Assembly: GCF_026627255.1 (NCBI RefSeq)
Contig: NZ_JAPNLM010000008.1
Span: forward strand, 1-64,000
From: Streptomyces antarcticus
GTDB taxonomy: Bacteria; Actinomycetota; Actinomycetes; Streptomycetales; Streptomycetaceae
Direction of reading: 5' to 3'
Length of the DNA: 64,000 nt
Below are positions 24,657 to 38,142 of this stretch, piece after piece. Made by a program: the position numbers and the translations under genes. The notes beneath the pieces are model-generated. The model ran no database searches and was not told the origin of the DNA. It was given only the letters and a program-made list of their open reading frames with translations. Numbering within the stretch: the first letter of the stretch is position 1; each line of letters opens with the position of its first letter.

Positions 24657-25325
24657 TCAGGCGGCTGTGCCGGTGGTGACGGGCAGGTCGCTCAGGCGCC
24701 ATTCGAGCATGCCCTCGGCCAGGCGCAGCGCGCGTCGGCCGCGGTGGTTGAGCAGGCGGACGGCGTCGTGGGCCAGGACGCAGTTGGCGCCTCGGCAGTA
24801 CGCGACGATCTCGGTGCCGGCGGGGAGTTCGGCCAGACGTGCTTCGAGTGCCTCCAGGGGGATGGAGAGGGCGCCGGGGATGTGGCCTGCCGTGTATTCC
24901 TCGGACGGGCGCACGTCGATGACGGTGGCGGTGCCGGCCGCGACGCGTTCCAGCAGTTCCTCGCGGGTGAGCTGGTCGGTGTCGGCGGGGCCGAGGTAGT
25001 CGGTGCGGGCGGCCTCGACAGCGGCGAGGTGCGTGCGGGCGACCTGCTGCAGCAGTGCGTAGAGGGAGGCGACGTCGCCTCCCGCGAGCCGGTAGTGGAT
25101 GCGCACTCCCTCGCGGCGTGTGGCGACCAGTCCTGCCTGCTTGAGGGTCTGCAGGTGGGCAGAGCAGGTCGTGAGACCCAGCCCCGCCGCTTTGGCGAGG
25201 GCGTCGACGCTGCGCTCGCCCTGGGCGAGCAGGTCCAGCAGTTCCAGGCGCTTGCCGCTGGCCAGCGCTTTGCCGGTGAGCGCGAGCGCCTCGTACATGG
25301 CGGCTTTGCGGGTGGGGTCTCCCAT
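24657..25325 (-). CDS. ArsR-family regulator fused to a rhodanese domain
   Basis: The product is about 222 residues. An ArsR winged helix (about 10-95: KRLELLDLLAQGERSVDALAKA, then TCSAHLQTLKQAGLV) is fused to a rhodanese domain (about 115-215) with the active-site loop YCRGANC. Such fusions sense sulfane-sulfur or control sulfur-oxidation genes. The ATG at 25325 follows GGAGGAAGCT; two upstream starts (25337 ATG and 25340 TTG) are less well placed. It is divergent from an MBL-rhodanese protein 89 bases away, which is the likely target. Confidence 0.88.
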   Translation of the reverse strand: MGDPTRKAAMYEALALTGKALASGKRLELLDLLAQGERSVDALAKAAGLGLTTCSAHLQTLKQAGLVATRREGVRIHYRLAGGDVASLYALLQQVARTHLAAVEAARTDYLGPADTDQLTREELLERVAAGTATVIDVRPSEEYTAGHIPGALSIPLEALEARLAELPAGTEIVAYCRGANCVLAHDAVRLLNHRGRRALRLAEGMLEWRLSDLPVTTGTAA

Positions 25326-25414
25326 AGCTTCCTCCATCAATCCATGGAATATTGTATGAGTAGGGAGGTGGTTGCGCCACCCTGACCCTGGTCCTACGCC
25401 CCTGGGAGTGTGTG

Positions 25415-26779
25415 ATGAGCTTCGAAGACCGCCATCTGATGCCGCTGGTCGACGAGGGCCTGGGCAACAGTGCCTACCTGGTCGACCTGGGTGACGGCCG
25501 GGCGCTGGCCGTCGACGCCGCCCGGGATCTGCGCGCCCTGCGGGCTGCCGCGGACCGGCGTGACCTGAGGGTGGCGTTCGCCGCCGACACCCACCTGCAC
25601 GCCGATTTCCTCTCCGGCGCGCTTCAGCTCGCCGCTGACGACGGCGCCCAGGTGCTGGCCTCCGCCGCCGGAAACCGGGCCTTCCTTCACACCGCTCTGG
25701 GCGATGGCGACGAGGTGGACCTCGGCGGGCTGACCCTGCGGGCGCTGGCCACCCCCGGCCACACCGATGAGCACCTGTCCTTCCTGTTGCTCGACGGATC
25801 GGCCGAGCTGGGGGTGTTCACCGGCGGGTCCCTGATCGTCGGCTCGGCCGCCCGCACCGACCTGCTCGGCGAGGAGCGGACGGTGGAACTTGCCCGCGCC
25901 CAGTACCGCTCCCTCCAGCGTCTGACCGCCCTCCCCGATGCGACCGGGGTGTGGCCGACCCATGGCGCCGGGTCGTTCTGTTCGGCACCGCCCGGATCTG
26001 AGCGGACCACCACCATCGGGGCGCAGAAGCGGGCCAACCTGCTGCTGACTGCCCCGGACGAGGACACCTTTGTGACGGCGCTGCTGTCCGGTCTCGGTTC
26101 CTACCCTGCCTACTTCGACCGCCTGGGCGAGATCAACCGCCGAGGCCCCGCTCTTATCGCCGCAGAGCCTGCCCTGCCGGCCCTGACCCCTGCCGAGGTG
26201 CGGACCCTGCTCGGCGAAGGCGCGTACGTGGTCGACGTGCGGCCGGTGGCGGAGTTCGCCTCCGGCCACATCCCTGGCGCGGTGTCCATCCCGCTGCGCG
26301 GCCAGTTCGCGACCTGGCTGGGCTGGCTGCTGCCCGACACCGTCCCACTCGTCTTCGTCGCCGGCCCCCGACAGGATCTGGCCGAGGTCACCTGGCAGTC
26401 CCTGAAGATCGGATACGAGCGCCTCGCCGGTCATCTGGGCGGCGGCATGATCGCCTGGAAGGCCGACGGCGGAGCAGAGCAGAGCATCGAGCTTCTCGCG
26501 CCCGGCCGCCTCGCCAACCGCCCGGTCCTCGACGTCCGGCAGGCGGCGGAGCACACCGCCGGGCACATTCCCGGCGCGCTGCACATCGAACTCGGCGACC
26601 TGGCATCGCACGCCGACCGGACCCCGGTCGGCGCCGTGGTCGCCTGCGGGCACGGCGAGCGCGCGATGACGGCGGCCAGCCTGCTGCAGCGCGCCGGACA
26701 CCACGGCCTCGCCGTCCTCGACGGCGGCCCCGGCGACTGGGCCGCCGCCACCGGCCGCCCCCTGCGGGAGAGCCGGTGA
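25415..26779 (+). CDS. MBL-fold hydrolase with two rhodanese domains (persulfide dioxygenase-like)
   Basis: This 454-residue protein has an N-terminal metallo-beta-lactamase domain with the DTHLHADFLSGA metal motif and GHTDEHLSFL, typical of persulfide dioxygenase/ETHE1-like proteins. Two rhodanese domains follow. The first (about 265-350) lacks the catalytic Cys (VFVAGPRQD in its place). The second (about 365-450) keeps it (VACGHGERAM). The combination should oxidise or transfer persulfide sulfur. The ATG at 25415 has GGGAG upstream. It overlaps the next gene (MFS) by 4 bases. Confidence 0.88.
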   Translation: MSFEDRHLMPLVDEGLGNSAYLVDLGDGRALAVDAARDLRALRAAADRRDLRVAFAADTHLHADFLSGALQLAADDGAQVLASAAGNRAFLHTALGDGDEVDLGGLTLRALATPGHTDEHLSFLLLDGSAELGVFTGGSLIVGSAARTDLLGEERTVELARAQYRSLQRLTALPDATGVWPTHGAGSFCSAPPGSERTTTIGAQKRANLLLTAPDEDTFVTALLSGLGSYPAYFDRLGEINRRGPALIAAEPALPALTPAEVRTLLGEGAYVVDVRPVAEFASGHIPGAVSIPLRGQFATWLGWLLPDTVPLVFVAGPRQDLAEVTWQSLKIGYERLAGHLGGGMIAWKADGGAEQSIELLAPGRLANRPVLDVRQAAEHTAGHIPGALHIELGDLASHADRTPVGAVVACGHGERAMTAASLLQRAGHHGLAVLDGGPGDWAAATGRPLRESR

Positions 26780-28087: not shown

Positions 28088-28501
28088 TCAGGCCGTTTCG
28101 GTGGGGGTGGCCTCGATGATGTGGCAGATGACGCCGGGTTCGCCGCGGCCGGCGGCCTGGTCGGCGCGGTCGCGTGCACTCTTCAGCGTCTCCCGGAGGG
28201 TCTGGAGGTCCTCGATGCGGCGGTCGATCTCGGCGAGGTGTTCGTCGAGGAGGCTGGTGACCAGGTCGCAGGGCTGTGCGCCCTGGCGCTGGAGGTCCAG
28301 GATGCGTTTGATCTCCTTCAGGCTCAGGCCGAGGGCTTGGGCCTGGCGGATGAAGTGCAGTTCGGGCAGCGCCTTCTCGGGATAGCTGCGGTATCCGGCC
28401 GCGGTGCGCTCCGCCGGGTCGATGAGGCCGTTCGCCTCGTACAAGCGCACGGCTTTGGGGCTCAGTCCGGCTTGTTTGGCCACTCGTCCGACGGTCAGCA
28501 T
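28088..28501 (-). CDS. MerR-family heavy-metal regulator
   Basis: The protein has 137 residues with an N-terminal MerR winged helix ([27 protein letters not shown]) and a long dimerisation helix (about 80-112). Cysteines are at 78 and 126. Cys78 lies just before the dimer helix, as in MerR, PbrR and CadR, while CueR uses two Cys in the C-terminal loop, so the metal may not be copper. It is divergent from the CPx-ATPase gene, with a textbook MerR promoter between them. A near-identical promoter at 33054 is a likely second target. Confidence 0.9.
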
Positions 28502-28542: not shown

Positions 28543-28573
28543 TTGACCTTGCCCCAGGGGCAAGGTTTTAGCG
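28543..28573 (+). promoter_or_regulatory. MerR-type promoter of the CPx-ATPase gene
   Basis: A -35 TTGACC (28543-28548) and a -10-like TTAGCG (28568-28573) are separated by 19 bases, the over-long spacer of MerR promoters. The spacer holds a perfect inverted repeat, ACCTTGCCCC and GGGGCAAGGT around a central A (28546-28566). Initiation would fall at about 28580, almost at the ATG at 28582, so the transcript is probably leaderless. Confidence 0.9.
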
Positions 28574-28581
28574 TCAGGGTC

Positions 28582-30906
28582 ATGACGACCACTGACATAC
28601 CCGGAGCCGCCGCGGCGCCGGTGCAGACCGAGCCAGCGCGCACCGTCGACCTGTCGATCACGGGCATGACCTGTGCCTCGTGCGCGGCACGGATCGAGCG
28701 GAAGCTGAACAAGCTGCCAGGGGTGAGCGCGTCGGTGAACTTCGCCACCGCCGGCGCTCACGTCGGCTACGCCGACGATGTGACGACGCAGGACCTGATC
28801 GACGTGATCAAGGAGATGGGGTACGGGGCGGCCCTGCCCGCTTCGCCTGCTGCGGCCGGTGCGGAAAGCCAGGCAACCGACGCTGAGGGGTTCACCGGCG
28901 CGGAGGAGCGGCACGTACGGGCCCTGCGGGACCGGCTGATCTCTTCTGCGGTGCTGACGGTGCCGGTCGTGGTGATGTCGATGGTTCCGGCGACGCAGTT
29001 CCGGTTCTGGCAGTGGCTGGCGTTCGCGCTGGCCTCGCCGGTGGCTCTGTGGGGCGCGTGGCCCTTCCACCGGGCCGCCGCGCTGAATCTGCGGCACCGG
29101 GCCGTCACCATGGACACCCTCGTTTCGCTGGGTGTGCTGGCGGCCTGGGTGTGGAGTGTGTACGCGCTCTTCGTCGGCGGAGCCGGTGAGCCGGGGATGC
29201 GCATGGCGGTCTCGCTGCTGCCCCGCTCGGCCGCAGGCGGGCACGGCGGTCCGGCCGAGCTGTATCTGGAGGTGGCCGCGGCGCTGACCGCGTTCATCCT
29301 GGCCGGGCGGTTCTTCGAGGCGCGTGCCCGCAGGCGTGCCGGCGACGCGATCCGGGCGCTGATGGACCTGGGCGCCAAGGACGTCGCTGTCCTACGCGAC
29401 GGGCATGAGGTGCGGGTGCCGATCGAACAGCTGGCGGTGGGCGAGGAGTTCGTCGTACGGCCCGGCGAGAAGATCGCCACCGACGGGGTCGTAGCCGAGG
29501 GTTCCTCCGCGGTGGACGAGTCGCTGCTGACCGGTGAATCGCTGCCGGTGGAGGTCGGCCCGGGTGACGCGGTCACCGGCGCGACCGTCAACGCCGGCGG
29601 CAGGCTCGTCGTACGGGCCTCGCGGGTGGGTACGGACACCAAGCTGGCGCAGATCGCCCGCCTGGTGGAGGAGGCGCAGACCGGCAAGGCGGCCGTACAG
29701 CGCCTCGCCGACCGGATATCGGCGATCTTCGTGCCGATCGTGATCCTGATAGCAGCCGGGACGCTGGCCGGCTGGCTGCTGCTCGGCCACCCGGTGGCAC
29801 TCGCGCTGACCGCGGCGGTGGCCGTGCTGATCATCGCCTGCCCGTGCGCGCTCGGACTGGCCACGCCGACCGCGCTGATGGTCGGCACCGGACGCGGGGC
29901 CCAGCTCGGGCTGCTGATCCGAGGACCTGAGGTGCTGGAGTCCACCCGCCGCATCGACACGATCGTGCTGGACAAGACCGGCACCGTCACCGAGGGCCGC
30001 ATGCGGCTCGCCGAGGTCGTCACCGCCGACGGTGAGGACCGTACGGAGATCCTGCGCCTGGCCGGGGCTCTGGAGCACGCCAGTGAACACCCGATCGCCA
30101 AGGCGATCGCGGACGCCGCCACCGAGGAGAATGGCGGCCTCACCCCCGTGACCGGCTTCGCCAATCACGCGGGGCGGGGCGTCACCGGGACCGTCGACGG
30201 CCGTCAGGTCATCGCGGGGCGGGCGAGCTGGCTCGGGGCCGAGTGGGGACTGGAGGTTCCGCCCGCGCTGCTCCGGGCCCAGCAGCAGGCCGAACGAGCC
30301 GGTCGTACGGTTGTGTTCGCAGCCTGGGAGGGCAAGGTACGCGCGGCCCTGGTGGTCGCCGACACCGTCAAGCCGACCAGTGCCGAAGCCGTCGCCCAGT
30401 TCAAGTCGCTCGGGCTGACGCCGGTGCTGCTCACCGGGGACAACGAGGCGGCAGCCCGGCACGTGGCCGCCGAGGTCGGCATCGACACCGTCATTGCCGA
30501 GGTCCACCCCGAGGATAAGGTCGCCGAGGTCAAGCGTCTTCAGGGGCTGGGCAAGGTTGTCGCGATGGTGGGCGACGGAGTCAACGACGCGGCCGCCCTC
30601 GCCCAGGCCGACCTGGGACTGGCCATGGGTACGGGCACCGACGCGGCGATCGCCGCGGCCGACCTCACCCTGGTGAAGGGGGACCTGCGCGGCGCCGCCG
30701 ACGCGATCCGCCTCGCCCGTAAGACCCTTGCCACCATCAAGGGCAACCTGTTCTGGGCCTTCGCCTACAATGTCGCCGCCCTGCCGCTGGCCGCGCTCGG
30801 CCTGCTCAACCCACTGATCGCGGGGGCCGCCATGGCCTCCTCGTCGGTGTTCGTCGTCACCAACAGCCTTCGGCTGCGCCGCTTCCAGCCCGCCGGCCGC
30901 GCCTGA
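28582..30906 (+). CDS. copA: Heavy-metal (copper-type) translocating P-type ATPase
   Basis: This P1B ATPase of 774 residues exports metal from the cytoplasm. An N-terminal HMA domain has GMTC31-AS-C34. A membrane CPC motif is at 420-422, the phosphorylation site at D464-KTGT, then SEHPIAKA and [14 protein letters not shown]. The last two helices carry YN ([11 protein letters not shown]) and MASSS, the signature of copper-type IB-1 pumps. An MHG-type loop of 16 residues, rich in Gly, sits between early helices. The ATG at 28582 is preferred over the upstream frame because the promoter ends there. Confidence 0.93.
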
Positions 30907-30917
30907 GCCGGAAAACC

Positions 30918-30953
30918 GGACCGCCCCGGCGACTTCGGTCACCGGGGCGGTCC
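30918..30953. terminator. 12-bp hairpin between copA and the HMA gene
   Basis: GGACCGCCCCGG (30918-30929) pairs with CCGGGGCGGTCC (30942-30953) across a 12-base loop. It separates two convergent genes and may end both transcripts. Confidence 0.8.
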
Positions 30954-30967
30954 TGCGTGCACGGGCG

Positions 30968-31246
30968 TCAGGCGGCGGGCCGGGCCTGGTACTCCCCGGC
31001 CTCCTCGACCGCCGCGATGAGCACGGCGGTTGCCACGGTGGCGCCCTCTTCCAGGCGGACGACGGTCCGACCAGCACGGGTATCGGTGCTCGACGAGCGG
31101 ACGCCGGGGAGTTCCTCCAGCTCGTCGTCGATCAGCAGGCCGCAGCTGGTGCAGTGCATGCCCTCGACGAGGAGGACGACCTCTGTACCGGCTCCTGCTC
31201 CGGCCGAGGCATCGGACTTCGTCTTCTTACGGCTGAACAGGCTCAC
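30968..31246 (-). CDS. Small heavy-metal-associated (CopZ-like) protein
   Basis: The 92-residue protein has one HMA domain with the metal-binding GMHCTSCG loop (Cys near residues 32 and 35), preceded by a basic N-terminus (MSLFSRKKTKSDASAG). It probably hands copper or a similar soft metal to the nearby ATPase or to the TauE-cupredoxin protein. The GTG at 31246 follows CTGGAC. It lies 13 bases after the TauE-like gene on the same strand, which suggests an operon. The presence of a hairpin on its 3' side supports its end. Confidence 0.9.
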   Translation of the reverse strand: MSLFSRKKTKSDASAGAGAGTEVVLLVEGMHCTSCGLLIDDELEELPGVRSSSTDTRAGRTVVRLEEGATVATAVLIAAVEEAGEYQARPAA

Positions 31247-31259
31247 GTCCAGGGTCTCT

Positions 31260-32423
31260 CTACTTGAAGTCGATGCTGCCGGTCTGCATGCCCATGGCGC
31301 AGGTGAAGCGCAGGGTGCCCGCTTTGCGGGTGCCCAGGTCCACCGTGGTGTCGCCGTTGCGCTTGACGATCTCCTGAACGCCGAGTTCCGGGATGGTGAA
31401 GGCGCGGGCGCAGCCTCCGGAGTCCTTCCCGTGCAGCACCAGCGTGGTGGGCACGTCCGCCTTGGCGGTGAACTGGGTGGTCTCGTAGAAGTCAGTCACC
31501 GTCAGCGTGAGGATCTGCTGCCCGGAGGCGTCCATCCGTACGGGGGCGTCGGCCGCAGACGTCTTTCCGCTCCCGGCGTCTGCCTCGGCGCTGTTCTGGT
31601 CTCCGCCCTCGACGATGAACGGGCCGCTCGCTGCGGGCCGCTTGGCCGGGGAGTCGAAGGACACCCAGCCGCCGGCTTGCAGCCCGGACATGACGGTCCA
31701 GGCGGCGACCGCCAGCACCACCACACCAGTGAGGAAGGCGAGCTGGCCCGAGAGCGCCTTGCTGGTCCGGCGGAGTACGTAGCCGAGTACCGCGAACAGC
31801 GGCGCCGTCCCCAGCACGAATCCGAACATGACCGCAGCTCCGGCCACCGGCGAGCCGGCCGTGATCGCGAGCAGCTCCACGGACAGCGTCACCCCGCATG
31901 GTACGAGGACCGTGGCGAACCCGATCAGGGCCGGGGTGGCGGCCGAGTCGGTCTTCGCGCTGCGCCGCAGCAGCCGTCCGAACGAGGCGGGAGGCCGCGG
32001 CACCAGCCGCCCCACCGCCTTGACCCCGAATAGGTCGAGCGCGAACAGCACCATCAGCAGCCCGGCGGCGACCACCATCCCTGCCTGGACGCGGGGGCTG
32101 GGCTGCAATGCTGATCCGAAGATCCCCAGCAGCGCTCCGAGGAGAGTGTGCGAGAGCAGCTTCCCGGAGAGGAAGGCCCCCACCGGAGCCAGCTGCCCGG
32201 CCAACGGCTCGGGCGCCTGGGCCGCGGCGACCCGCTCAGCGGTGGCGGTACGGCCACCGGACTTCGGCCGCTTCGCGGACGCAGCGGCGGCGGGGACTCG
32301 GGCGGGGGTGCGGCGGGTGACCGCGCCGGCGAGGAGCCCCCCTTGGACGGCGGCGCAGGAAGCGCCACCGGCGAGCAGACCGGTGCTGAGACCGGTGATG
32401 AGCAAGGTGATGGACGACGGCAT
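31260..32423 (-). CDS. TauE/SafE-DsbD-like membrane protein with C-terminal cupredoxin-like domain
   Basis: This 387-residue protein has about six hydrophobic helices (GLSTGLLAGGASCAAVQGGLL near the start, then several later). The fold resembles the sulfite-exporter/DsbD-like transmembrane family. The C-terminal domain (about 290-387) resembles a cupredoxin (GGCARAFTIPELGV and LRFTCAMGMQTGSIDF), where Cys and Met residues could ligate copper. The fusion occurs in metal operons and could move copper or reducing power across the membrane; this is inference. An HMA gene follows it. Confidence 0.82.
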   Translation of the reverse strand: MPSSITLLITGLSTGLLAGGASCAAVQGGLLAGAVTRRTPARVPAAAASAKRPKSGGRTATAERVAAAQAPEPLAGQLAPVGAFLSGKLLSHTLLGALLGIFGSALQPSPRVQAGMVVAAGLLMVLFALDLFGVKAVGRLVPRPPASFGRLLRRSAKTDSAATPALIGFATVLVPCGVTLSVELLAITAGSPVAGAAVMFGFVLGTAPLFAVLGYVLRRTSKALSGQLAFLTGVVVLAVAAWTVMSGLQAGGWVSFDSPAKRPAASGPFIVEGGDQNSAEADAGSGKTSAADAPVRMDASGQQILTLTVTDFYETTQFTAKADVPTTLVLHGKDSGGCARAFTIPELGVQEIVKRNGDTTVDLGTRKAGTLRFTCAMGMQTGSIDFK

Positions 32424-32550
32424 GCGTCGTAACTCCTATTCTGCGACAGCGGCACGCGCAGAGGGAACGCACAGTGAAATCGGGCGTGCCGAGGCGGACA
32501 TGGGGACAGCGCGGCGTCCCGCGAGGCAGAGACTCACGAGAGGGGAGCTG

Positions 32551-32964
32551 TCACGTCCGTGACACACACAACCGATGTAGATCAGGAGGGGGCAGTACGC
32601 GCGGCGGCGTGTTCGGCTGCGACACCAGGGCAGCCGGCGGGCAGGTGGCCGTGTCCGGCGCGGCGTCGAGCACCGGAGCCGTCGGACCGTCGTTGACGAC
32701 GGTCCCCTTCGGCGCCTCGCACACCTGCCGGGAGGTCGGACACTCAGGTCCGCTGTCGCTGAAATCGCTCGCCATCACCACATGCCCCGCAGGGGCATCC
32801 GAGCCGACCGTCGCGGATACAGCACCCATCGGGCCCGTCATCGCCATCGGCATCGCCATGGCGGAACGCGCCAGCCCGGTCAGGCAGAACATCAACGCGC
32901 ACACCAGCAACGCCCCGGACCAAGTCCGGAGCGCCGGGGGCAGGCGTCGCGTCATGCGCGCCAT
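32551..32964 (-). CDS. DUF6153-like small membrane/secreted protein
   Basis: The 137-residue protein has one N-terminal hydrophobic segment (WSGALLVCALMFCLTGLARSAMA) and then a Met-rich stretch (MAMPMAMTGPMGAVSA). Several cysteines occur in the outer part (PECPTSRQVCEAP and TCPPAALV). Met- and Cys-rich exported proteins of the DUF6153 kind are common beside copper genes. It is read in the same direction as the TauE-cupredoxin gene, 127 bases upstream of it. No enzyme motif is seen. Confidence 0.65.
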   Translation of the reverse strand: MARMTRRLPPALRTWSGALLVCALMFCLTGLARSAMAMPMAMTGPMGAVSATVGSDAPAGHVVMASDFSDSGPECPTSRQVCEAPKGTVVNDGPTAPVLDAAPDTATCPPAALVSQPNTPPRVLPPPDLHRLCVSRT

Positions 32965-33053
32965 CGTAGGCCACAGCCTGCCGCCGCCCCGCCGCGACCA
33001 CTAGGGCGAACCATGACTTCCACCGATCCGGGCGACGAGCCGAACTGTCGCCC

Positions 33054-33084
33054 TTGACCTTGCCCCCGGGGGAAGGGTTTAGCG
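33054..33084 (+). promoter_or_regulatory. Second MerR-type promoter
   Basis: A -35 TTGACC (33054-33059) and -10-like TTAGCG (33079-33084) are again 19 bases apart. The operator is an imperfect inverted repeat, ACCTTGCCCC and GGGGGAAGGGT. It agrees with the copA promoter at most positions, including the downstream GCGTC, so the same regulator probably acts on both. Confidence 0.85.
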
Positions 33085-33161
33085 TCGTAGTGTCAGGCAT
33101 CTGGAGGTCTGCTCTCCTCCGTGGACCTGCGATGCCGCCAGAACGGATCGGAGGACGGGTG

Positions 33162-33386
33162 ATGGACAAGCTGCTGTACCTGCTGCCGCTGCTCGCATGC
33201 CCCATCGGCATGGGGCTGATGATGTGGTTCATGATGCGCTCCCGACATTCGGACACCGCGCAGCCGCCACAGACCGCCCCCACCACCGAACAGGAGCAGG
33301 AACTCATCCGCCTCCGCAAGGAGGTAGAGGCCCTGCGCAGTGAGATCACGCCGGAGACCGCTCCCGGCAAGGACGGCACACCGTGA
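33162..33386 (+). CDS. Small Met-rich membrane protein (metal operon gene 1)
   Basis: This 74-residue protein has one transmembrane segment packed with Met, Cys and Pro ([21 protein letters not shown]) and a charged cytoplasmic-type coiled tail ([21 protein letters not shown]). The ATG at 33162 follows GGAGGACGGGTG. It is the first gene of a three-gene operon after the second MerR-type promoter. I do not recognise a characterised family. A metal-sensing or metal-handling membrane role is inferred from the promoter. Confidence 0.65.
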
Positions 33387-33610
33387 CCGGCATCTGGCTC
33401 CCCCTGGCCGCGACTCTCCTCGCCGTCGCCTTCATGTACGTGTGCTGCATCCGCCCGATGCGGCGCAAGGCCGGCTGCTGTACGACTCCGCCCCCACGCA
33501 CCCGGGAGAGCGTCGACGAGGAGATCAGGAACACCCGTGAGGAACTGCGCGTGCTGCGTGAGCAGGCCGCCACGCGGGAGGCCCGCGCTCCCCGGGCCTC
33601 CGGCCGGTGA
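33383..33610 (+). CDS. Small Cys-rich membrane protein (metal operon gene 2)
   Basis: This 75-residue protein has one hydrophobic helix ([21 protein letters not shown]) with two adjacent cysteines at its end and two more soon after (KAGCCTT). A helical charged tail follows ([23 protein letters not shown]). The GTG start overlaps the stop of the previous gene by 4 bases. The next gene also overlaps by 4 bases. The topology mirrors its upstream neighbour, and the two could form a small membrane complex. The family is unrecognised. Confidence 0.65.
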
Positions 33611-33924
33611 CTGGGGACGAGGCCATGGAGCTCACCGTGCTGGCTGTGCCCGACTGCCCGAACGTTGCCCTACTGCTCCAGCGCCTGGAGCAGGCACTAC
33701 CCGAGGCGCGAGCGCCTGTCCGGGTCCACGTGATCACGACCGACGCGGAGGCGGCCCGCTTCGGAATGCACGGCTCACCGACTCTGCTCGCGAACGGAAT
33801 GGACCCCTTCGCCGCAGCGGGCGTCGGCACGAGTGTCTCCTGCAGGATCTACGGCGGCGCTGATGGACGCAGAGAAGGCGCCCCGAGTGTCGAGCAGCTG
33901 CGGGAAGTCCTTCAACGAGGCTGA
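33607..33924 (+). CDS. Thioredoxin-like small protein (metal operon gene 3)
   Basis: The 105-residue protein begins MELTVLAVPDCPNVALLLQRLEQAL (from an internal ATG at 33625), a thioredoxin-fold-like strand-helix start with a DCPN loop. FGMHGSPTLLANGMDPF provides the cis-proline region. Similar small proteins accompany mercury and other metal genes in actinobacteria. The GTG at 33607 overlaps the previous stop by 4 bases; the ATG at 33625 follows GGGGACGAGGCC and may be the real start. A redox or metal transfer role is inferred. Confidence 0.6.
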   Translation: MTGDEAMELTVLAVPDCPNVALLLQRLEQALPEARAPVRVHVITTDAEAARFGMHGSPTLLANGMDPFAAAGVGTSVSCRIYGGADGRREGAPSVEQLREVLQRG

Positions 33925-34103
33925 GTACTTGCGGGCTACGGGTCTACCCGGCTGCTGCCGTTGGCGCGCACCTGCGATGCCGCGGAGCTCGCCTCCTGCG
34001 ATCTGCCAGGTGATGGTGTCAGATGGATTGCAGTTTCGAGTCGGCATGCCTCATGCGATCGTCCACTGTGATCTGCGACGGGACGTTGTGCAGACTGCCA
34101 AGC

Positions 34104-35399
34104 ATGACCGACACCGCACCACCTGCCGATACCGCTGCCGACCAGGCCTGGCTCACCCGGGTCAAGGGCATCGGCGCGGCCAGCTTCCTGGCCCATGTCG
34201 GTCACGAGATCCCGACCGCCCTGCTTCCTTCGCTGCTGACCTCCACCCTTGGGGCGCCGGCTGCCGCGCTCGGCGCGATCGAGGGCATCTCGGACGCGCT
34301 CGCGGGTGCGGCCCGGTTCGGTGGGGGCTTCCTGGCGGACGACCCGGCCCGTCGCCGGAAGGTCGCCGTCGGCGGCTATGCCACCACCGCCGCCCTCGGT
34401 GCCGCCACCGCCGGGGCCACCGCGGTCTGGCAGGTCGGCCTGCTCCGCGCGGCGGCCTGGACGGCCCGAGGGCTCCGGGTCCCCGCGCGCAACGCGCTGC
34501 TCGCGGACATCGTCCCGGCGAAGGCGTATGGCCGCGCGTACGGCTTCGAGTGAATGATGGACAACCTCGGCGCGATCTTCGGGCCGTTGTTCGCGCTCGG
34601 ACGCGTCGCCTGGCTCGGCGTTCAGTGGGCCATCGGGCTCTCCGTCATCCCCGGCCTGCTGGCCGCGGCGGCGATCGTCTACGCGATCCGCAAGACCCCG
34701 AAGCCCACGAGCCGGGACAAGGTCCCGCTCAAGATCGGGGTCAAGCCGGTCCTCACCGGCGACCTCGGCCGGCTGCTGAGCGCGGTCGCGGCCTTCGAGG
34801 TCGGCAATGTCGCCGCCACGCTCCTGATCCTGCGCGCTTCGGACCTGCTGGCGCCCGGGCACGGCACGAAGACCGCGACCACGATCGCGCTCGGCCTCTA
34901 CACCGTGTACAACGTTGCCGCCACGATCGCCTCCGTCCCCGCTGGACGCCTGTCCGACCGGCTCGGCACCCGTGGCCCGGTGATCGTCATGGCCGCCGGA
35001 GTCGGGGCATTCGCCCTCTCGTACGGCCTGTTCACCATCGACGCCGCCGCCTTCGCCTTCCTGGCGGTCCCCTTCGTCCTGGCCGGCATCGGCATCGGCG
35101 CTGTCGAGACCGCCCAGCACTCCGCCGTCGCGGCCCTGGCCCCGAAGGACCTCCGAGGCTCCGCCTTCGGCATGCTCGCCACGGTCCAGTCCCTCGGCAA
35201 CCTCGCCGCCAGCACGATCGCCGGCATCCTGTGGACCGCGGTCTCCCCGACGGCCGCCTTCACGTACCTCACCGCCTGGATGGCGATCGCCCTGGCGGCC
35301 CTCCTCTTCTCCGCCGCCCGCGCGCGCGGGCGGCAACGCCTGCCTGAGAGACATACGCCTGGCCAACCGCTTCTGTGGGACCCCGAATTCGCGCCGTGA
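34104..35399 (+). pseudogene. MFS transporter interrupted by one in-frame TGA
   Basis: A 431-codon MFS gene with a single in-frame TGA at 34551-34553 (codon 150). The sequence before it ends AKAYGRAYGFE and after it runs MMDNLGAIFGPLFALG in the same frame. An arginine codon CGA mutated to TGA would explain it by one C-to-T change. The two halves are otherwise undamaged across about twelve helices. Alternative explanations are readthrough, or two half-size proteins with ATGATG restart. It lies near arsenic genes; the substrate is unknown. Confidence 0.82.
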
Positions 35400-36457: not shown

Positions 36458-36880
36458 TCAGCTCTCCTGCTTCTTCGCGTCAATCTCGGCGATGAGGCCT
36501 TCGATGAGAATCTTGATCTCGTCGCGAATGGGGCGAACGGCCTCGACGCCCTGGCCGGCCGGGTCCTCCAGCTGCCAGTCGAGGTACTGCTTGCCGGGGA
36601 AGTACGGGCAGGCGTCGCCGCAGCCCATGGTGATCACGTAGTCCGAGGCCTGGACGGCCTCCGTCGTCAGCACCTTGGGTTTCTGGTCGGAGATGTCGAT
36701 GCCCAGCTCGGCCATCGCGGCCACGGCGGAGGGGTTGATCTGATCGCCGGGCACGGAGCCGGCGGAGCGGACCTCGACGCGATCCCCTGCGAGGTGGCGC
36801 AGGAAGCCTGCGGCCATCTGTGAACGGCCTGCGTTGTGGATGCAGACGAACAGCACGGACGCGAGCGGGGTGGCGGACAT
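36458..36880 (-). CDS. arsC: Arsenate reductase (low-molecular-weight phosphatase type)
   Basis: The 140-residue protein has the phosphatase loop VC13-IHNAGR-S20. Further cysteines lie at about 87 and 91 (MGCGDACPYFPGK), as in actinobacterial ArsC proteins that couple to thioredoxin or mycothiol. It reduces arsenate to arsenite. The ATG at 36880 (MSATPLASV) is chosen because AAGAAGAG precedes it; the frame opens upstream to 36934. It is divergent from an ArsR regulator, with two palindromes between them. Confidence 0.93.
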   Translation of the reverse strand: MSATPLASVLFVCIHNAGRSQMAAGFLRHLAGDRVEVRSAGSVPGDQINPSAVAAMAELGIDISDQKPKVLTTEAVQASDYVITMGCGDACPYFPGKQYLDWQLEDPAGQGVEAVRPIRDEIKILIEGLIAEIDAKKQES

Positions 36881-36960
36881 CGGCTCTTCTTTCATGGCTG
36901 CGGGGCTGCCGCACTCCACACTCCACGCACGCACGAAGGGACGGCTCAGCCCGGACTGGT

Positions 36961-36997
36961 ATCACTCCCGAGTGATGTGAAAGTATCAGTTCATGAT
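36961..36997. promoter_or_regulatory. Candidate ArsR operator palindromes
   Basis: ATCACTC-CC-GAGTGAT (36961-36976) is a perfect 7-2-7 inverted repeat in the arsC/arsR gap, and ATCA-GTTCA-TGAT (36985-36997) lies next to the arsR start at 36993. Both are AT-rich relative to their surroundings and suit dimeric ArsR binding. Confidence 0.65.
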
Positions 36998-37307
36998 GAC
37001 GTCAGTCGACACTGATCCGATCCGGGTTCTGGCCGACCCGCTCAGGCTCCGGATCGTGACCCTCCTCGCCAAGGAGACGCTCTGCACCACCCACCTCGTG
37101 GAGGAGACGGGTGCCAAGCAGACCAACCTCTCCAACCACCTGAAGGTGCTGCGCGAGGCGGGGTTCGTCGATACGGAGCCATGCGGGAGGTACATCTACT
37201 ACCGCCTGCGCCCGGAAGTCATCGAAGCCCTCGCCGGTCAGTTCGCCGACCTCGCCCAGACCGCGCGTGCCACCGCCGAAGCGAACCTCAAGCGGTCCTG
37301 CCCATAG
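36993..37307 (+). CDS. ArsR-family repressor (arsenic cassette)
   Basis: The 104-residue protein is a winged-helix ArsR/SmtB repressor (DPLRLRIVTLLAKETLCTTHLVEETGAKQTNLSNHLKVLREAG). The sensing helix reads TLCTTHL, so of the usual C-x-C pair only Cys31 is kept; another Cys lies in EPCGRY. It therefore differs from the E. coli arsenic site and may use a different cysteine set. It faces arsC and is followed by the aquaporin gene, and probably controls both. Confidence 0.88.
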   Translation: MMTSVDTDPIRVLADPLRLRIVTLLAKETLCTTHLVEETGAKQTNLSNHLKVLREAGFVDTEPCGRYIYYRLRPEVIEALAGQFADLAQTARATAEANLKRSCP

Positions 37308-37347
37308 TCTTTCCCGCTGTGCCTCACCTGCCCGAGGAGAACCCGTC

Positions 37348-38142
37348 TTGACCGTCACCGAGCCTGTTGACACCGGCCCCGCAGCGGAGGGCGTCATAGC
37401 CGCCGACGCGCCCCGGCCTGCACCTGGCGCCACCCCGCCCCGCACTCCGTTGATCGCCCGCGCCGCCGCCGAGCTGGTCGGTACCGGGGCCCTGGTCGTG
37501 GTCGTGGTCGGGTCCGGAATCCAGGCCACCAAGCTCACCGACGATGTGGCCCTCCAGCTTCTGGCCAACTCCACCGCCACCGTCTTCGGCCTCGGGGTCC
37601 TCATCGCGCTCCTCGGCCCGGTCTCCGGCGCCCACTTCAACCCGGCCGTCACGCTGGCCGAGTGGTGGACCGCCCGCCGCGGTGGCGCCGGTGTCACCGC
37701 ACGCGAGCTGGCCGTCTACGTGCCTTCGCAGATCGTCGGCGCCATCGCGGGCGCGATCCTGGCGGACGCGATGTTCGGCGAGCCCCTCGTGAAGTGGTCC
37801 ACGCACGACCGGTCCGCCGGGAACCTGCTACTGGGTGAAGTCGTCGCCACTGCCGGCCTGATCCTGCTGATCTTCGGGCTGGCACGCACCGACCGGCTCC
37901 GGTTCGCGCCCGTCGCCGTCGCCTCCTACATCGGTGCCGCGTACTGGTTCACCTCCTCCACCTCCTTCGCCAACCCGGCCGTGACCATCGGTCGCGCATT
38001 TACCGACACCTTCGCGGGCATCGCCCCCGCGTCGGTCCCGGCGTTCATAGGCATGCAGCTCATAGGCGCTGTGGTCGGGCTGGCGCTGGTGGCGGTCATC
38101 TTCATGCGCGCCAAGACGGTTGGCGGGCGGCCCTCCGCCTGA
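37348..38142 (+). CDS. Aquaglyceroporin-family channel (probable arsenite exit)
   Basis: The 264-residue MIP-family channel has both NPA motifs: SGAHFNPAVTLAEWW and SFANPAVTIGRAF, with six hydrophobic helices around them. In arsenic operons lacking ArsB/Acr3, such channels (AqpS type) release arsenite made by ArsC. No ArsB or Acr3 gene is present in this island. The TTG at 37348 follows GAGGAGAACCC; the frame is open further upstream. The gene lies 40 bases after arsR on the same strand. Confidence 0.88.
   Translation: MTVTEPVDTGPAAEGVIAADAPRPAPGATPPRTPLIARAAAELVGTGALVVVVVGSGIQATKLTDDVALQLLANSTATVFGLGVLIALLGPVSGAHFNPAVTLAEWWTARRGGAGVTARELAVYVPSQIVGAIAGAILADAMFGEPLVKWSTHDRSAGNLLLGEVVATAGLILLIFGLARTDRLRFAPVAVASYIGAAYWFTSSTSFANPAVTIGRAFTDTFAGIAPASVPAFIGMQLIGAVVGLALVAVIFMRAKTVGGRPSA

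Follow-up and report, generated by a model that had tools for sequence, protein, structure and literature searches.

What does a MerR-type promoter in front of three small genes share with the one in front of a nearby pump gene, and could a single regulator serve both? The question is raised by the first 64,000 nucleotides of contig NZ_JAPNLM010000008.1 of Streptomyces antarcticus (assembly GCF_026627255.1; hereafter the window), for which a preliminary description, made from the letters alone, had proposed a MerR regulon linking a CPx-type ATPase to three small Cys- and Met-rich proteins. Our analysis points to a copper-induced MerR regulon that drives copA and the genes of two tiny membrane proteins, here called MetTM and CysTM, which would handle Cu(I) at the membrane; we consider this reading probable. 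The features concerned are the following:

28088..28501, minus strand: MerR-family, CueR-like regulator of 137 amino acids (aa), with two Cys only (C78 and C126) and CueR as its closest solved structures.
28543-28575, plus strand: promoter/operator 1, TTGACCTTGCCCCAGGGGCAAGGTTTTAGCGTC, with TTGACC, a perfect 19-bp dyad and TAGCGT, intergenic to the divergent merR and copA.
28582..30906, plus strand: CopA-type P1B ATPase of 774 aa, with GMTCASC near the N-terminus and CPC, YN and SS motifs.
33054-33086, plus strand: promoter/operator 2, TTGACCTTGCCCCCGGGGGAAGGGTTTAGCGTC, in the same frame as operator 1, with a G in place of the C at position 19 (window position 33072).
33162..33386, plus strand: MetTM, 74 aa with 6 Met, one hydrophobic segment (LACPxGMxxMMW) and a C-terminal heptad helix; DUF2933-like.
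33383..33610, plus strand: CysTM, 75 aa with 4 Cys, one hydrophobic segment followed by CC-x-RPM-(x5)-CC, and a C-terminal heptad helix.
33607..33924, plus strand: third gene, encoding a putative DF-type thioredoxin-fold protein of 105 aa, with C17-P18, SPT, DPF and C79.

Both sites share the frame TTGACCTTGCCCC-N-GGGG[C/G]AAGG[T/G]TTTAGCGTC; the dyad of the first is perfect (CCTTGCCCC-A-GGGGCAAGG) and that of the second carries one mismatch. With up to 3 mismatches allowed, the consensus matched the window twice, as compared to no match in 100 dinucleotide shuffles. A looser pattern without mismatches found just these two sites in the whole 8.5-Mb genome (reversed-pattern control, 0), and contig C50 of the same genome has a third one that is more diverged, with 3 mismatches. 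Both window sites pass a test for MerR-type promoters, namely a spacer of 19-20 bp with a dyad between -35 and -10, and the E. coli copA promoter, TTGACCTTCCCCTTGCTGGAAGGTTTAACCT, which is controlled by CueR, has the same layout. The two shared-frame promoters of the preliminary description were found at exactly the positions given, with TTGACC as the -35 element. Its 19-base spacer was less fortunate: the -10 of both sites seems better read as TAGCGT, which makes the spacer 20 bp, TTAGCG with 19 bp remaining an alternative. Either reading fits MerR promoters, whose spacers measure 19-20 bp according to a passage of PMC9909328. We took ATG 28582, 6 nt past the end of operator 1, as the start of copA (GTG 28516 lies upstream of the operator), so the copA mRNA is probably leaderless. 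Promoter 2 is separated by 75 nt from ATG 33162, behind which MetTM, CysTM and the third gene follow one another with successive 4-nt overlaps, as the tightly overlapping operon described earlier requires.

The operators are conserved together with the regulator. Among 246 genomes of the genus, 10 operator sites were found in 6 genomes (reversed-pattern control, 0), and a MerR ortholog (E<=1e-40) in 5, all within these 6. Random placement would produce such a coincidence with a probability of about 8e-10, a figure that is weakened by linkage, as MerR and both operators lie on one island. In G358, the sixth genome, a single site precedes a CopZ-like gene, and the MerR is 52% identical; the promoter-2 site is also present in 4 of the 5 genomes with a MerR ortholog. 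Conservation of the operators and their co-occurrence with MerR thus argue for the shared regulon proposed at the outset.

A broader sample came from searching 84,980 species, each represented by one genome, for MetTM and keeping the best 80 matches. The resulting 79 loci are no census: they were retrieved by MetTM alone and include near-identical copies (e.g. L064/L065, L073/L074 and L096-L098). The operator precedes MetTM in 8 of them (L053-L059 and L061) as well as in the window, at a distance of 75-294 bp; in five (L056-L059 and L061) a gene for a Cys-rich protein of about 48 aa sits between the two. CysTM is present in all nine promoter-2 loci with MetTM, window included. The operators of the 8 other loci are 85-94% identical to that of the window, whereas the flanks have diverged in the 7 less related ones (43-50% identity over 100 bp upstream and 42-58% over 75 bp downstream, in gapped alignments); those of the close relative L054 are 83-84% identical. 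Scanning of the loci with up to 4 mismatches gave 34 distinct sites (L053 and L159 overlap, and their two common sites were counted once): 15 lie before copA, a cyclodipeptide synthase gene (CDPS(-copA)) or copZ, 10 are promoter-2 sites (9 before MetTM and 1 before the 48-aa Cys-rich gene only) and 5 precede the 48-aa gene elsewhere. Position 19 is G in 10/10 promoter-2 sites (the 9 MetTM loci and genome G298), and C in 15/15 copA, CDPS-copA or copZ sites and in the 5/5 other sites before the 48-aa gene. Either a lasting difference in affinity or descent from two old copies would explain this split.

Is the operon behind promoter 2 a unit in its own right? CysTM directly follows MetTM in 52 of the 79 loci and in 58 of 85 when the window, four plasmid loci and L052, all six from other searches, are added (L050 and L051, the same loci as L053 and L055, were removed before counting, from 87 to 85). 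The offset between the two genes is -4 in 50 of the 58 pairs, -1 in 4 and another value in 4. As to the company they keep, CopA, TauE-cupredoxin, CopCD, HMA or DUF305 genes occur in 56 of the 79 loci and CopY/BlaI or M56 genes in 15 more, that is, copper or CopY/M56 genes in 71; the 8 loci with none of these genes comprise two full 20-kb stretches (L106 and L113) and shorter ones, two of just 4-5 kb. CopA-like genes alone were found in 41/79 loci. The 8.5-Mb genome of S. antarcticus has 9 CopA-like matches, counting fragments and other P-type ATPases, so that chance would place such a gene in very roughly 2% of 20-kb stretches (the thresholds differ). The 79 loci come from 36 Streptomyces, 9 Arthrobacter, 5 Cryobacterium and 8 metagenome-assembled genomes (MAGs) of Solirubrobacteraceae/Thermoleophilaceae, along with single or few other actinobacteria, three Chloroflexota-type MAGs and one Nitrospirae MAG. 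Within Streptomyces the pair is rare, with CysTM matches in 12 of 199 genomes at E<=0.01 and 4 below 1e-9, window included. Behind CysTM lies a secreted lipoprotein gene in L053 and L055, both promoter-2 loci, and in L088, and CopCD matches in L059. MetTM and CysTM are thus a real module: across Actinobacteria, the genes of these two tiny, translationally coupled membrane proteins are found in the neighbourhood of copper genes.

The window itself points in the same direction. The ATPase passes a test for CopA, with 536.6 bits against the TIGR01511 cut-off of 397, a CxxC HMA domain and the CPC, YN and SS motifs. It has 305 identical residues over 796 aligned columns with E. coli CopA, the two having CPC, YN and SS in common; the YN and SS motifs are marks of Cu+ pumps. 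Between copA and promoter 2 lie three further genes:

30968..31246, minus strand: HMA-domain CopZ-like protein of 92 aa.
31260..32423, minus strand: fusion of a DsbD_2 (TauE/SafE-like) membrane domain with a cupredoxin-like domain, 387 aa.
32551..32964, minus strand: protein of 137 aa with 9 Met, 6 Cys and a hydrophobic N-terminal segment, with homologs in syntenic loci and no match in Pfam or NCBIfam.

By this context the metal of the module, which the preliminary description had left general, is likely narrowed to copper: the ATPase carries Cu+-type motifs, an HMA protein and a DsbD-cupredoxin fusion lie beside it, and CopC/CopD or DUF305 genes are neighbours in some of the other loci.

In 81 MetTM sequences C13, P14, M17, M21 and W22 are invariant, and in 56 CysTM sequences C22 is (beside the start Met). 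Basic residues follow each membrane span and, by the positive-inside rule, the C-terminal helices are probably cytoplasmic. MetTM scores 16.1 bits with DUF2933 (PF11666), under the 21-bit cut-off, and 30 of 81 members match that family at E<=0.1 (best 4e-4, none shown past the cut-off). Comparison of profiles supports the kinship: hhalign gives 98% (E 1.6e-13) for the whole length and 95.9% for the transmembrane (TM) half alone, as compared to 38% for a reversed-profile control, and the MetTM profile also retrieves the DUF2933 gene on contig C50 (E 2e-4). Like MetTM, Pfam DUF2933 members have a hydrophobic segment with CPxxM, and some a C-terminal heptad helix; by contrast, the MetTM motif has a four-residue insert. 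MetTM is thus a remote relative of DUF2933. Matches to CcmH were seen for 18 of 81 members at E<=0.1. An assignment of CysTM to DUF2933 was rejected (hhalign 40%, in the coiled-coil part only), and its Pfam matches are scattered and weak (16 families, each in at most 5 of 56 members, best E 5e-4), none making a convincing family. MetTM and CysTM were also considered as paralogs: hhalign gives 95% over the whole length, but 8% for the TM halves and 87% for the coiled-coil halves. Since the similarity is confined to the coiled-coil half, we do not claim common descent.

The third gene behaves differently. Its product scores 45.1 bits with the NCBIfam DF family (seleno)protein model NF049942 (cut-off 70), and its AlphaFold2 model (pLDDT 85) has mostly thioredoxins as top Foldseek matches, the best at an E value no lower than 0.022. 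Of 293 genomes of the order, 41 encode a homolog, that of S. antarcticus among them; the protein was aligned with those of 28 of 29 homolog loci, L020 being excluded on account of an in-frame TGA. In 13 of the 29 loci the homolog is directly followed by a MerB-type domain, as in a fusion, and the other relatives stand alone; one full protein of this type was confirmed by Pfam as thioredoxin-like plus MerB. On plasmid locus L049 (15673-16650), the DF-type thioredoxin domain is fused to MerB (PF03243, 124.9 bits) beside a MerR gene. Homologs were found in 3 of the 79 MetTM loci, none within the operon, which also holds for L049, and none in the 8 other promoter-2 loci. Membership of the third gene in the core module was rejected on these grounds, and the gene is a local addition to the operon of the window. 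The three-protein module foreseen in the preliminary description is thereby reduced to its first two members: these recur together in the neighbourhood of copper genes, which refutes the proviso that the genes might never co-occur elsewhere, and the third was not found in an operon with them elsewhere. The statement that none of the three belongs to a recognised metal-handling family stands for CysTM; it goes too far for MetTM, with its remote relationship to DUF2933, and for the third protein, with its sub-threshold DF match.

The sequence itself shows the two promoters and how they are conserved, as well as the pairing of the genes and their copper neighbourhood; we infer binding by MerR, copper as the inducer, the topology of the small proteins, their complex formation and their binding of copper. 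A CueR-like MerR dimer would sit on the two over-long promoters and respond to a metal, most likely Cu+ (possibly Ag+ or divalent ions too); once metal-bound, it would untwist the DNA and thereby let RNA polymerase begin transcription. Promoter 1 would yield CopA and hence Cu+ export. Promoter 2 would yield MetTM and CysTM, both predicted to cross the membrane once; their C-terminal helices could pair, and their Met and Cys residues would be located within and just inside the membrane. The two would most likely assemble in the membrane into a complex that binds Cu(I) and acts as a copper buffer or relay close to CopA, and the putative DF-type thioredoxin-fold protein added to the operon here would perhaps keep thiols reduced. 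A more specific version, in which an obligate MetTM-CysTM heterodimer either passes Cu(I) on to CopA or keeps it at the inner face of the membrane and is induced by a two-Cys MerR that breaks the rule on Ser and Cys discussed below, is one we would rather bet against. If true, it would represent a new kind of membrane-bound copper relay, its MetTM side akin to the DUF2933 tandems in some copper clusters of other phyla.

Besides the linkage mentioned above, several findings weigh against a copper regulon of this composition, and some of them concern the sensor. The window MerR has the MerR DNA-binding domain and dimer helix (PF09278, 76.6 bits; PF13411, 57.4 bits), and its best solved match is CueR (E 2.5e-17). 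It scores 95.8 bits with the NCBIfam CueR model TIGR02044, under the cut-off of 147.4, and lies below the cut-offs of the ZntR, CadR-PbrR and MerR models as well. C78 occupies the position of CueR Ser77, where 13/13 aligned actinobacterial sequences (window included) have Cys; the equivalent of CueR C112 is absent, and C126 matches CueR C120. This first loop Cys is missing from 12 of the 13 sequences and present only in the C50 paralog (L160), and ten aligned MerR relatives adjacent to copA have Cys at the equivalents of positions 78 and 126 and no others. According to PMC9909328 and PMC11591864, Ser marks monovalent and Cys divalent sensors of the family, nearly every member of which has two loop Cys; by the rule as quoted in PMC11591864, divalent sensing is predicted here. 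The regulator thus seems CueR-like by promoter and targets, yet fails three residue or score tests of CueR membership. This opens the way to a real regulon that responds to divalent soft metals (Hg, Cd, Pb or Zn) rather than copper, with the third gene as a mercury-handling part, an idea to which the MerB-type domains downstream of its homologs and the confirmed fusion lend some weight. We nevertheless find it unlikely: the ATPase motifs and neighbours are of the copper type, the operator shares its frame with the copA promoter of E. coli, a scan of 16 proteins from the stretch 24.6-38.1 kb gave no MerA or MerB match at the cut-off (no separate MerA search was made), nothing in the window matches the MerB domain of L049 significantly, and the other promoter-2 loci do without the DF-type gene. 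Copper is retained as the likely inducer because the targets of the regulator are copper genes. With a divalent-type Cys and copper genes as targets, the regulator offers a test of the published Ser/Cys rule.

Other counts tell against the pair as a fixed part of a copper regulon: CysTM is missing from 27 of the 79 MetTM loci, no such operator lies close upstream of 44 of the 52 pairs, and CopY and M56 genes accompany the pair in 27 and 28 of these 52 loci, respectively. Promoter 2 of G298 precedes the 48-aa Cys-rich gene, with no MetTM found in the surrounding 20 kb, G411 carries the copA-side site alone, and 4 of the 34 operator sites (1-4 mismatches) have no identified target. MetTM-CysTM could be a structural or proteolysis-control partner that binds no copper, serving for instance as adaptor to CopA or to the M56 protease that accompanies it in other loci. 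The presence of CopY in 38/79 loci and of M56 in 38/79 would suit such a role, as would the coiled-coil similarity of the two proteins. Against it, neither the window nor any of the 8 other promoter-2 loci gave a match to M56 or CopY, and the invariant residues of MetTM and CysTM fit metal ligands, so that we hold this alternative to be possible without favouring it. That promoter 2 is a decayed, unregulated duplicate of the copA promoter is highly improbable: the mismatch in its dyad is what one would expect of decay, but the layout has been kept in 9 loci despite the diverged flanks, and the G at position 19 in every promoter-2 site.

How much of the probably copper-induced regulon is new can be judged by comparison with known systems. 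E. coli CueR-copA likewise combines a MerR-type activator, a promoter of the type TTGACCTT...AAGGTTTA with an over-long spacer and a Cu+-ATPase gene downstream; the window differs from it by a sensor with Cys78 and Cys126 only and by a second target, the operon of small membrane proteins. Clusters of merR, copA, cupredoxin, DUF2933 and isoprenylcysteine methyltransferase genes are reported from Alteromonas and other marine bacteria (PMC8478169). As far as the available text of that paper goes, they resemble the window in bringing together MerR, a Cu+-ATPase, a cupredoxin protein and a small DUF2933 protein, and differ in forming a single row, CysTM and a second MerR promoter being absent from the clusters described. 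DUF2933 also lies beside pcoG in CHASRI (PMC12582456), and the accessible parts of both papers give no function for it. In 2 of 5 plasmid loci viewed, from Paraburkholderia (L143) and Enterococcus faecium (L144), tandem DUF2933 pairs lie near P1B ATPases. Copper islands of the CopY/BlaI-M56 kind on plasmids of Streptomyces, S. mirabilis pI (L046) among them, have MetTM-CysTM with a 4-nt overlap and MerR-CopA-CopZ-TauE genes. There the operator precedes CDPS-copA and, unlike in the window, the pair belongs to a CcdA-peroxiredoxin-glutaredoxin-MetTM-CysTM-CopCD row with no operator in front. According to an excerpt of PMC9195940, copYZ of this plasmid had no effect on copper tolerance, which plasmid loss left almost unaffected; with the locus tags of that study unmapped onto L046, the result neither tests nor supports the pair. 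Searches on MerR/CueR copper regulation in Streptomyces and on small membrane proteins for copper in actinobacteria returned no description of the regulon or the pair among the matches listed (titles and abstract openings, subscription literature lying mostly outside). CueR-copA type regulation and DUF2933 in copper clusters being known, the new part of the regulon is the MetTM-CysTM pair.

The operator also stands before genes of other kinds. A gene for a tRNA-dependent cyclodipeptide synthase lies between operator and copA in L046 (1954-2661; PF16715, 243.9 bits) and in L047, L048, L056, L057, L059, L061, L081 and L158; given this position it is probably co-induced with the pump, which would make its product a copper-linked cyclodipeptide. 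No paper on a copper-linked cyclodipeptide synthase appeared by title among the matches listed. The protein of about 48 aa, mostly with 6-7 Cys (YRCPDxxCGCExTVTK...TCCCG), is encoded behind the same kind of operator in L156 (12186-12329), L055, L056-L059, L061, L081, L085 and L159, and on contig C50 (L160 17338-17198, minus strand). It is metallothionein-like, weakly similar to desulforedoxin (PF06397, below the cut-off) and has no significant match in the window.

Contig C50 carries a second copper island of the same genome (L160 6461-10823 and 17198-17846), with two MetTM genes, a DUF2933 gene, TauE-cupredoxin and HMA genes as well as ATPase fragments, in which MetTM adjoins a true DUF2933. 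Its MerR, 51% identical to that of the window, is transcribed away from the 48-aa gene, and the operator there is a variant one.

Around the copper genes of the window, the genes of an ArsR-rhodanese fusion and of a protein that has two rhodanese domains diverge at 24657-26779; these are sulfur-related genes next to the island. Just 3' of the operon, a major facilitator superfamily gene (34023-35399) is split by an in-frame TGA, with PF07690 on both halves, below the cut-off on the first. An arsenic-type cluster follows at 36458-38142, with an ArsR-type regulator, a low-molecular-weight phosphatase (ArsC-like by context) and a MIP channel.

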